Source: Chloroflexota bacterium (GTDB lineage: Bacteria > Chloroflexota > UBA6077 > JACCZL01). From it: a stretch of DNA of 64,000 nt. This document shows, one piece after another, positions 45,101 to 47,312 of this stretch. Location of the stretch: contig JADZEM010000123.1 in NCBI GenBank assembly GCA_020850535.1, positions 1 through 64,000 on the forward strand, in the 5' to 3' direction. The translations under genes were made by a program, and so were the position numbers. The first letter of the stretch is position 1, and every line of letters begins with the position of its first letter. Under the pieces are notes generated by a model. The model saw only the letters and a program-made list of their open reading frames with translations. It did not search any database and was not told the DNA's origin.

Positions 45101-45501
45101 GCGTCCTCAATGATGGCGGTGATGCGCTTATCTACCCGCCGAGCCGAGGGTGGGAAAGCCGGCACCGCGATGAGATCAGCGTAGAGGCAGCCGAAGAACG
45201 CCGCGATATACTCTGGCTCGTGCGGAAGCAGCAGCAGCACGCGCTCGCCCGGGGCCGCCATGCCGCTCAGGTGCGCCCCAATCGCCCGTGCCTGTCGGTC
45301 AAGCTCCCGGTAGGTTAGCTGCCGTCGTGGGGCTTCGTCGGATCCGAGGAAGCTGTAGCCCAGGTTGTCGGGAGACTCGCACGCGCGGAGCCGCAGCAGA
45401 TCAACCAGACTCTCGCACTGGGTGCTGGCGGGTGAGCTGGCTAGCCGTGTGGGCGCGTCGCTCGTGCTCGGTGTTCCCGGAGCCTGAGGGGTACGCGTCA
45501 T
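42199..45501 (-). CDS. Fatty acyl-AMP ligase / acyl carrier protein / thioester reductase megaenzyme
   Basis: A 1100-residue tri-domain protein. About residues 30-590 are a FAAL-type adenylation domain with [21 protein letters not shown] near 190, an FAAL-like N-subdomain, and [23 protein letters not shown] near 455. An ACP follows with phosphopantetheine Ser660 in [15 protein letters not shown]. About 730-1100 is a thioester-reductase domain: [37 protein letters not shown], and the catalytic [11 protein letters not shown]. It should activate a fatty acid as acyl-AMP, load it on the ACP and release it as an aldehyde or alcohol with NAD(P)H. The start ATG overlaps the stop of the upstream fusion gene. 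Confidence 0.92.
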   Translation of the reverse strand: [1100 protein letters not shown]

Positions 45502-47312
45502 GACATCAGCCCTTGGAGCGCCTGAATCAACGCAGCATTCTCCTCTTCACTCTTGACGGCCACGCGGATGTACTGCCCCTGGCCGAGGCCGGCCTTGCCG
45601 GTGCAGTCCTTGACGAGCAGCCAGTGCTCTGTCAGCAGTCGCTGGCCCAGGGTGGCAGCGGTCCAGGGCGGGCGGACCTCGCAGAGCACGAAGTTGCCGC
45701 CCGATTCAATTGCCCGGAGGCCTGGCAGGCAGGCCAGGTCTCTCGTGAGCTGAGCGCGGTTCTCAATGAGCCGATGGCAAGCGGCGCGGTACTCGCACTC
45801 GTACCGTCCGACCATCTGCATGAACCACTCGGCCAGGGCGTTGATATTCCAGATTGGCAGGCGGCCGGCGATGCGTTGGAGGAGAACGGCGTCCCCGGAC
45901 GCCAGCACGCCCAGGCGGAGCCCGGCGATGCCATGCGACTTGCCAAGGCTGCGAATCACGATCAGATTCGGGAAGCGGGCCAGCGTCTCGGGATCCAGCA
46001 AGGAGCGCCCCTGGCAGCCATCCACGAAATCGATGAACGACTCGTCGAGGATCAGCCGAGTGCCTTGCGTGCGCAACGTTTCCAGGAGCACCAGAATGTC
46101 GTCGCGCCTGAAGGTCTGGCCGGTTGGGTTGTTCGGGTTGACCAACACCAGCGCTGCCGCCGACTGGTCTCGGGACGCCTGCGCCAGATTGTCCAGGTCG
46201 TGCCTGAATGTGTCCGGTTCGAGCGCCGCCGGCCCCATCGGCACCGCTTCGGGATAGTGCCCGTACTCCTCGAAGGTCGGCGTCGGCACGATGACCGGGC
46301 CTGAGATGTCGGCGAGCATGGCTGAGATCAATTCGGCGGCCCCATTCCCCACCAGAATCTGGTCCGGCTGGCAGCGAAACAACCCAGCCGCCAGCGAACG
46401 CTGGACCGCCAGGCCAGACGGGTACATCGTCGCCAGCTGTGGGGCGGCGTCGGAGAGCGCCTCGCGGAGGCCGTCAGATGGAAAATACGGGTGTACGAGG
46501 TACGTGAAGTCCTTCAACCGTGGGAAGCGCCAGTAGCCGCCGTACCGTTTCTGGAGCCGCTCGAATCGCTCCTCGGCGGGCGCGAACAGGACACTGGCTA
46601 TGTCAAGATCCTGCTGGTCATCGATCTCGTACCAGCGCCGCTCACCGACTGGCAACGCGACGAGGTTGTCGTCGCCCATGTAGACGAGCGCCCGCAGCAC
46701 TTCCTCGTAGTAGTGCCCGCGCCCCTCCATGCCGACGTACGCCGCCAGGAACGGCATGAGCCGACTCCTGGAGAGTTCGCGGCTCAACTTGTACAGATTG
46801 ACCGTCTTGAAGTAGCTGGCCGCCTCAGCCCGCCGAAACTCCCGCTTCGAAACAAAGCGGGTTATCCGCAGGTCGTCGTCGAGGACTGTGACCGTCCCGT
46901 CCATCCACGGCTCGTATGCGGCGACCACCGCCACATTTTTCGCAGGGTGGGAGGCGCACGCCAGCAAAATCTCTGGCTCGAAGATGACGTCGCTCTCCAG
47001 GAGCAGCGTGTCGTCCTGTTCCAGGTACTCGCGTGCGAGCAAGAGCGAGTAGATGTTGTTCGTCTCGGCGTAGACCGGGTTGGTGACGTAGTGGACCGGG
47101 ATGCCGGCCTGCTCGCTGCCGAGAAAGGCTCGGACCTCGTCGGCCCCATGGCCCACGACGATGACGATCCGTTCGACGTTCGCCCGTATCAGGGCGTCGA
47201 GCGCGTACTCCACCAGCCGCCGGCCATTGAGCTCGACCATGCACTTGGTCGAATGGCGGGTGGTAGCGCCGAGGCGCTTCCCCAGACCGGCAGCCAGAAT
47301 CACCGCCTGCAT
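45498..47312 (-). CDS. Nucleotidyltransferase fused to class I/II aminotransferase (PntC/LicC-like plus HisC/CobD-like)
   Basis: A 604-residue fusion. Residues 1-240 are a sugar/choline-phosphate-type nucleotidyltransferase: QAVILAAGLGKRLGATTRHSTK (NTP loop), ETNNIYSLLLAREYL, LLLESDVIFEP. Residues about 265-604 are a fold-type-I PLP enzyme of the HisC/CobD group: VLVNPNNPTGQTFRRDD, LILDESFIDF and the Schiff-base Lys458 in SLGKSHGIAGLRLG. LicC makes CDP-choline; PntC activates 2-aminoethylphosphonate; CobD-like enzymes decarboxylate amino-acid phosphates. The fusion thus suggests synthesis of a CDP-amino-alcohol (or phosphonate) for the downstream phosphatidyltransferase. Which reaction the PLP domain does is unknown. 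It is divergent from the STAND regulator. Confidence 0.85.
   Translation of the reverse strand: MQAVILAAGLGKRLGATTRHSTKCMVELNGRRLVEYALDALIRANVERIVIVVGHGADEVRAFLGSEQAGIPVHYVTNPVYAETNNIYSLLLAREYLEQDDTLLLESDVIFEPEILLACASHPAKNVAVVAAYEPWMDGTVTVLDDDLRITRFVSKREFRRAEAASYFKTVNLYKLSRELSRSRLMPFLAAYVGMEGRGHYYEEVLRALVYMGDDNLVALPVGERRWYEIDDQQDLDIASVLFAPAEERFERLQKRYGGYWRFPRLKDFTYLVHPYFPSDGLREALSDAAPQLATMYPSGLAVQRSLAAGLFRCQPDQILVGNGAAELISAMLADISGPVIVPTPTFEEYGHYPEAVPMGPAALEPDTFRHDLDNLAQASRDQSAAALVLVNPNNPTGQTFRRDDILVLLETLRTQGTRLILDESFIDFVDGCQGRSLLDPETLARFPNLIVIRSLGKSHGIAGLRLGVLASGDAVLLQRIAGRLPIWNINALAEWFMQMVGRYECEYRAACHRLIENRAQLTRDLACLPGLRAIESGGNFVLCEVRPPWTAATLGQRLLTEHWLLVKDCTGKAGLGQGQYIRVAVKSEEENAALIQALQGLMS

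Follow-up and report, generated by a model that had tools for sequence, protein, structure and literature searches.

A Chloroflexota fusion of a LicC/PntC-type cytidylyltransferase and a SMUL_1544/CobD-type PLP enzyme as a candidate for CDP-ethanolamine synthesis from O-phosphoserine

The gene described here was found in a Chloroflexota bacterium (assembly GCA_020850535.1), in positions 1 to 64,000 of contig JADZEM010000123.1, the whole stretch of 64,000 nucleotides being referred to below as the window. It lies at 45498-47312 and encodes an N-terminal cytidylyltransferase domain of the LicC/PntC type fused to a C-terminal pyridoxal 5'-phosphate (PLP) enzyme domain of the SMUL_1544/CobD type. 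From the placement of the two domains we propose, with moderate confidence, that the protein is a bifunctional cytidylyltransferase/PLP decarboxylase leading from phosphoserine to CDP-ethanolamine, a claim about the enzyme and not about a lipid. That it holds two catalytic domains of these families is nearly certain, and their pairing as a decarboxylase plus a cytidylyltransferase is highly probable. Phosphoserine and ethanolamine as the substrate/product pair are a favored though less secure assignment, and a fatty alcohol as the acceptor of the phosphotransferase encoded in the same operon is a tentative one.

Results

The fused gene

A single open reading frame of 604 residues fills 45498-47312 on the minus strand (47312→45498), and on the plus strand of the same positions frame 1 is closed by stops. 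Pfam assigned NTP_transf_3 to residues 3-133 (2.5e-16) and Aminotran_1_2 to residues 302-599 (2.8e-32). The nucleoside triphosphate (NTP) loop AAGLGKRL...K23 and the PLP lysine K458 in SLGKSHG are intact, and both lysines are invariant in an alignment with eight full-length homologues of 41-45% identity; thirteen full-length homologues were found in this range. An AlphaFold2 (AF2) model of the whole chain has a pLDDT of 82.5. Because the whole protein of about 600 residues is conserved across phyla, the frame is not a chance one. An earlier sequence-only reading of this DNA had named a nucleotidyltransferase–PLP fusion at these positions with both catalytic units intact, Lys458 included, and both statements hold; the strand, which it did not give, is the minus strand. 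Annotated relatives carry only the name 'aminotransferase class I/II-fold PLP-dependent enzyme', and no NCBIfam model has a cut-off that the fusion family reaches.

45498..47312, minus strand: fusion of a LicC/PntC-type cytidylyltransferase (N) and a SMUL_1544/CobD-type PLP enzyme (C); open reading frame, Pfam, NCBIfam, AF2 model, homologues
46578..47312, minus strand: cytidylyltransferase domain, residues 1-245; nucleotide loop, K23, TNNIYSL, E106-S107-D108, YYE203, WYEID, profile search
45501..46547, minus strand: PLP domain, residues 256-604; GGYWR, DESF(I)DF, K458, WNIN, R583, profile search, tree

The cytidylyltransferase domain

A profile built from eight fusion N-domains matched LicC (1jyk) with 85.5 bits and PntC (6pd1) with 81.4 bits, the PntC match spanning nearly the whole domain, whereas sugar and inositol nucleotidyltransferases reached 52 bits or less. 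These scores rule out RmlA or another sugar nucleotidyltransferase as the identity of the domain. The fusions stand with LicC and PntC in the N-domain tree, in which support is lacking at the deep forks that separate the three groups. The motifs TNNIYSL (LicC-like), ESD(L/V/I)IF (PntC-like), and YYE are kept in all 27 homologues from which motifs could be extracted, out of 32 (the pattern missed the other five).

Glu104 and Glu196 of PntC face the primary amine of the substrate, and LicC, which binds choline, has aspartates there (PMC6697681). In the fusion, E106 is aligned to PntC E104, where LicC has Asp, and E203 is aligned to LicC aspartate 192 and falls either in the column of PntC Glu196 or in the neighboring one. 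As E106, and probably E203, corresponds to a PntC glutamate in place of the LicC aspartate, a small primary amine appears more likely than choline as the substrate of this domain.

The PLP domain

The C-domain profile search returned SMUL_1544 (6oux) with 233 bits, 3ftb with 173, and CobD with 155, followed by Porphyromonas gingivalis CobD with 124 and HisC proteins with 122 to 95 (E. coli HisC, 95). When the whole-chain AF2 model was searched with Foldseek, PntC-AEPT came first by E-value, followed by SMUL_1544 (TMt 0.79) and CobD (TMt 0.84); Foldseek labels 6oux as SMUL_1544, a Sulfurospirillum multivorans decarboxylase. In a careful tree of 37 sequences a clade with support of 100/100 unites the fusion C-domains, stand-alone relatives from rhizobia, SMUL_1544 with its relatives from Bacteroidia, and a single stand-alone protein from the phylum of the window, and leaves out HisC and classical CobD. 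The DESF-x-(D/E/N/H)-F motif of this clade (one NGR234 copy reads DETF) stands where the HisC rows show DEAY, and in place of their PYN/PFN/PYP most members have WN(I/V)N, of which the WxVN form also occurs in CobD-like rows.

The best NCBIfam model for the domain is CobD (TIGR01140), whose 187.7 bits stay under the cut-off of 290.55. With this score and a position outside the CobD clade, classical CobD membership was ruled out. The HisC model gave 149 bits against a cut-off of 276.55, and this score and the separate clade rule out HisC as well; the genome carries its own HisC (C102) and a separate CobD-like gene (C91). From the norcobamide work of Keller et al. of 2016 (cited in PMC8749415), SMUL_1544 is reported to be active on phosphoserine.

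Genome background

Phosphoenolpyruvate (PEP) mutase (PF13714) over the cut-off was found neither in the whole genome, which is 96% complete (best score 22 bits against 31.5), nor in 12 other fusion-bearing genomes, those of close homologues. The weak matches, among them the single one in the own genome, are without the EDKx5NS motif. The genome also has an ordinary phosphatidylserine decarboxylase gene with an adjoining CDP-alcohol phosphotransferase gene (a psd/pss pair), so phosphatidylethanolamine can be made without the operon, and supply of this lipid is an unlikely role for it.

The operon

The fusion gene is the first of a tight three-gene operon that continues with a fatty acyl-AMP ligase (FAAL)–acyl carrier protein (ACP)–thioester reductase gene and a CDP-alcohol phosphotransferase gene. 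The sequence-only reading had correctly placed a CDP-alcohol transferase two genes away and had not mentioned the gene in between, on which an understanding of the operon depends. The stop of the fusion overlaps the next start by 4 bp (ATGA, 45498-45501), and the phosphotransferase begins, with GTG, 14 bp after the FAAL–ACP–reductase gene.

42199..45501, minus strand: fatty acyl-AMP ligase–ACP–thioester reductase, 1100 aa, translationally coupled to the fusion; Pfam, NCBIfam, ATGA overlap
42194..42199, minus strand: AAGGAG ribosome-binding site ahead of the phosphotransferase GTG start; read from the sequence
41513..42184, minus strand: CDP-alcohol phosphotransferase, 223 aa; PF01066 5e-13, complete active-site motif

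The protein of 1100 residues matches the Pfam families AMP-binding (5.4e-61), PP-binding (4.8e-11), and NAD_binding_4 (5.6e-65), as well as NCBIfam TIGR01746 (333 bits, cut-off 213) and FAAL models with up to 429 bits. A motif scan found DxxDGxxAR(x8)GxxxDxxxD intact in the phosphotransferase; its nearest solved structure, AF2299 (4o6m, E = 1.2e-6), is a distant relative, and a single-sequence structure model of the phosphotransferase was too poor for use. The G+C content of the fusion gene matches its surroundings, and searches for phage, Rfam, and tRNA features were uninformative here.

Several neighbors of the operon were also observed. A divergent regulator with XRE-HTH, NB-ARC, and TPR parts (47729-50278, plus strand) faces the operon and may control it, and a Calx-beta surface protein of 1073 residues is encoded downstream (37947-41168, minus strand). 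A broken remnant of an enolase-superfamily dehydratase (MR_MLE_C, about 45 residues) follows the phosphotransferase at 41313-41493 (minus strand), and a similar tail (..AHAVYRRPG) at 37855-37909 (minus strand) forms the odd start of an S58 peptidase frame (36665-37909). Both resemble fragments of dehydratase genes that have decayed or been duplicated.

Homologues and their gene neighborhoods

Full-length homologues were found in Parabacteroides, Treponema, Atopobium, and Fusobacterium, and more distant ones in Erwinia, Rahnella, Priestia, Gloeothece, and Pseudonocardia plasmids. The fusion occurs in about 3-4% of the sampled genomes from groups around the Treponema and Atopobium genomes. Since it was found in only one of 400 genomes of its own phylum, the window genome itself, it was probably acquired horizontally. 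For the phosphotransferase there was no match at E <= 1e-15 in any other of 301 genomes of the phylum. Most relatives of the FAAL-reductase protein in the phylum are ligase-ACP segments within other genes; the sole near-full-length FAAL–ACP–reductase relative (genome G031) has neither the fusion nor the phosphotransferase as a neighbor.

The window fusion belongs to a PEP-mutase-free clade (96/95), outside a rhizobial/Erwinia/Priestia sister clade (99/96). Neighbors were counted at 32 loci of the own clade, within the available stretches around each. Fourteen of these loci are in the trees directly or via a close relative and the other 18 were placed by score; several come from near-identical species, so that the counts are not independent, and they stand without matched control loci. 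LicD is near the fusion in 16 of the 32, a CDP-glycerol-type phosphotransferase (Glyphos_transf, PF04464) directly adjoins it in four, and PEP mutase occurs in none within the stretches covered. In the sister clade a CDP-alcohol phosphotransferase (CDP-OH_P_transf) directly adjoins the fusion in Erwinia, Rahnella, Agrobacterium vitis, and Priestia and is nearby in rhizobia, and PEP mutase lies beside the relative in three rhizobial loci. In Gloeothece the fusion is followed by a methyltransferase and LicD. The fusion is thus accompanied by three unrelated families that use CDP-activated donors, LicD, Glyphos_transf, and CDP-OH_P_transf (the last in the window and the sister clade), and among the genomic arguments for its synthesis of such a donor this is the strongest.

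About 11 of the 32 own-clade loci have, next to the fusion, a gene of the opine-dehydrogenase family, whose enzymes act on amines. This suggests that the amine is further N-alkylated there, for example to carboxyethylamino-ethyl phosphate. Examples of octopine/nopaline-dehydrogenase genes are L004:9823-10938, L141:9856-10944, L143:4249-5328, and L065:11804-13015.

Other neighborhoods deserve mention in their own right. Some fusions, among them those of Atopobium and Fusobacterium, have a DUF1015 gene as a neighbor (L014:6879-7922, L072:10820-11869, L130:10047-11381, and L142). DUF1015 is often near serA/serC, which raises the idea of a role in phosphoserine supply; structure comparison and literature gave no support for DUF1015 as a serine kinase or phosphoserine supplier. 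On plasmid pBM700 of Priestia megaterium (L067, 8992-12638) three genes stand in a row, those for the fusion, for a CDP-alcohol phosphotransferase that carries no annotation, and for a second DXR, and the stretch looks like a fosmidomycin/FR-900098-like cluster with its own resistance target. Three rhizobial plasmid loci (L065, L066, and L082) hold aepX and the CobD-like enzyme, with a LicC-like cytidylyltransferase and a CDP-alcohol phosphotransferase nearby, and are apparently an unexplored phosphonate cluster of legume symbionts.

Discussion

Proposed reaction

In the proposed reaction a phosphorylated hydroxy-amino acid, with O-phospho-L-serine as the likeliest one, would lose its carboxylate at the C-domain. 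The N-domain would join its phosphate group to CMP drawn from CTP, and together the two domains would yield CDP-ethanolamine or a closely related CDP-amino-alcohol. CMP transfer may precede decarboxylation, an order that has been reported for FrbH. With PEP mutase over the cut-off absent, the natural candidate substrate is O-phosphoserine, which arises on the way to serine. The CDP-alcohol phosphotransferase of the operon could then move phosphoethanolamine onto an alcohol, and the FAAL–ACP–thioester reductase could supply a fatty alcohol or an aldehyde-derived acceptor, which would give an alkyl phosphoethanolamine-type lipid.

Several observations weigh against this proposal. LicC is a poor user of phosphoethanolamine (PMC6697681). 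K568 of the fusion stands at the position of an arginine in SMUL_1544 and CobD, and substrate contacts should therefore differ from those of both enzymes. The psd/pss pair of the genome means that CDP-ethanolamine from the fusion would serve something other than phosphatidylethanolamine. The three-gene operon was seen in no other genome searched, and no special similarity links the CDP-alcohol phosphotransferase of this operon to its counterparts next to the fusions of Erwinia and rhizobia. Finally, membership of the reductase gene in the operon is the one argument for a fatty-alcohol acceptor.

Alternative explanations

The sequence-only reading had left two routes side by side, activation of aminoethylphosphonate (AEP) as by PntC, and CobD-like decarboxylation followed by formation of a CDP-amino-alcohol. 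The second survives, with the N-domain placed beside LicC and PntC and the PLP domain beside SMUL_1544; its grouping with decarboxylase-type enzymes stands, but CobD proper is not the closest relative. The phosphonate route, in which the fusion would make CMP-aminoethylphosphonate from phosphonoalanine or AEP, is quite improbable for the window protein. It can draw on the glutamate common to E106 and PntC, on the phosphonate chemistry of both PntC and FrbH (PMC6697681, PMC8976061), and on the sister-clade relatives that adjoin the aepX PEP mutase on rhizobial plasmids, with a cytidylyltransferase and a CDP-alcohol phosphotransferase nearby, and for those relatives it holds. The window protein, however, falls in the PEP-mutase-free clade and not in theirs, and the lack of PEP mutase that had been remarked for the window extends to the nearly complete genome and to those of the close homologues. 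RmlA-type and ordinary HisC placements, which had been named as outcomes that would speak against a donor-forming fusion, were not what the profiles and trees returned.

Decarboxylation of another substrate, O-phospho-L-threonine, would give CDP-1-amino-2-propanol by classical CobD chemistry plus activation. The CobD-like fold and CobD as the top NCBIfam model agree with this, but the score is well under the CobD cut-off, the tree sides with SMUL_1544, and the genome has a separate CobD-like gene; we consider phosphothreonine unlikely. A PLP domain that acts as an aminotransferase, making a phospho-amino-alcohol such as serinol phosphate from a phospho-ketone or phospho-aldehyde for the N-domain to activate, would agree with the superfamily in common with HisC and with the transaminase of the related fusion PntC-AEPT (PMC6697681). 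It is about as improbable as the phosphonate route, given that HisC scores well below SMUL_1544 and CobD, that the DESF and WN(I/V)N motifs differ from their HisC counterparts, and that SMUL_1544 and FrbH are reported as decarboxylases. Somewhat unlikely, though less so than any of these, is that the fusion makes CDP-ethanolamine while the other two proteins build a different lipid, such as an ether or aldehyde lipid or a phosphodiester formed with another alcohol. Many other pathways use FAAL-ACP and reductase modules, the acceptor of the phosphotransferase is unreadable from sequence, and AF2299 is a distant relative; on the other side, the tight coupling of the three genes favors a joint product.

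Significance

CDP-ethanolamine is a head-group donor for lipids and sugars. The general view is that bacteria obtain ethanolamine head groups via phosphatidylserine, and CDP-choline from choline that they import. In some species covered by a 2023 survey of bacteria with phosphocholine, the pathway could not be found (PMC10434233). If the proposal is true, a single fused enzyme from phosphoserine to CDP-ethanolamine would be a short de novo route to the donor, could explain the donor for the many LicD genes beside the fusion in gut and oral bacteria (Parabacteroides, Fusobacterium), and would be the non-phosphonate counterpart, and possible origin, of the FrbH-type enzymes of phosphonate antibiotics. 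The route of the fused enzyme is directly testable with commercial substrates. In its full form the proposal is of a PEP-mutase-free CDP-ethanolamine route from O-phosphoserine, independent of free ethanolamine, choline import, and phosphatidylserine, which would feed LicD, TagF-like, or CDP-alcohol phosphotransferases in scattered phyla and here a new operon for an alkyl phosphoethanolamine-type lipid from a fatty acid; we put this whole at slightly under an even chance. The open literature, to which our search was confined, subscription papers being outside it, contained no phosphoserine-based CDP-ethanolamine route, no phosphonate-free LicC–decarboxylase fusion, and no such operon.

Comparison with known systems

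The fusion architecture itself is already known from PntC-AEPT and FrbH. By the scores and trees described above, the window protein is judged not to be PntC-AEPT, HisC, CobD, or RmlA. SMUL_1544 (6OUX) from norcobamide biosynthesis represents the sister family of its C-domain, with the DESF and WNIN motifs in common, but is a stand-alone protein without a cytidylyltransferase and has Arg where the fusion family has K568. CobD, the L-threonine-phosphate decarboxylase (1LC5), has the fold and the PLP motifs in common with it but belongs to another clade, and the operon is without cobamide genes. LicC, the CTP:phosphocholine cytidylyltransferase (1JYK), is the best match of the N-domain, with NN(F/I)YSL in common and LicD near fusion relatives; in contrast to LicC the fusion has Glu for Asp at LicC position 105, and probably at 192 too, and carries a decarboxylase, and no choline kinase gene is present in the window operon. 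PntC-AEPT from Treponema denticola (6PD1/6PD2) is likewise a cytidylyltransferase–PLP fusion and has the ESD motif with E104. Its PLP domain, however, is a class V AEP transaminase and not an Aminotran_1_2, SMUL_1544-like domain, so that its fusion arose separately. It also belongs to a PEP-mutase cluster, and whole-chain superposition with the fusion model gave a TM-score of 0.36, the domain arrangement being different or badly modeled.

The closest architecture is FrbH rather than PntC-AEPT. FrbH, compared here by its published description, has an N-terminal cytidylyltransferase and a C-terminal PLP decarboxylase in one chain (PMC8976061, PMC6697681). It acts on 2-amino-4-phosphonobutyrate (PMC8976061), and its lysine 38, the counterpart of the loop lysine of the fusion family, is essential (PMC6697681). 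A possible proxy for FrbH, the Priestia fusion beside the second DXR gene, is in a different clade and 30% identical. The substrate of FrbH, 2-amino-4-phosphonobutyrate, is an isostere of O-phosphoserine that has CH2 in place of O. The pathway of FrbH includes PEP mutase, whereas no PEP mutase over the cut-off was found in the window genome, and because this trait fails the window protein is called FrbH-like rather than FrbH: it is an FrbH-like fusion of a separate, phosphonate-free clade.

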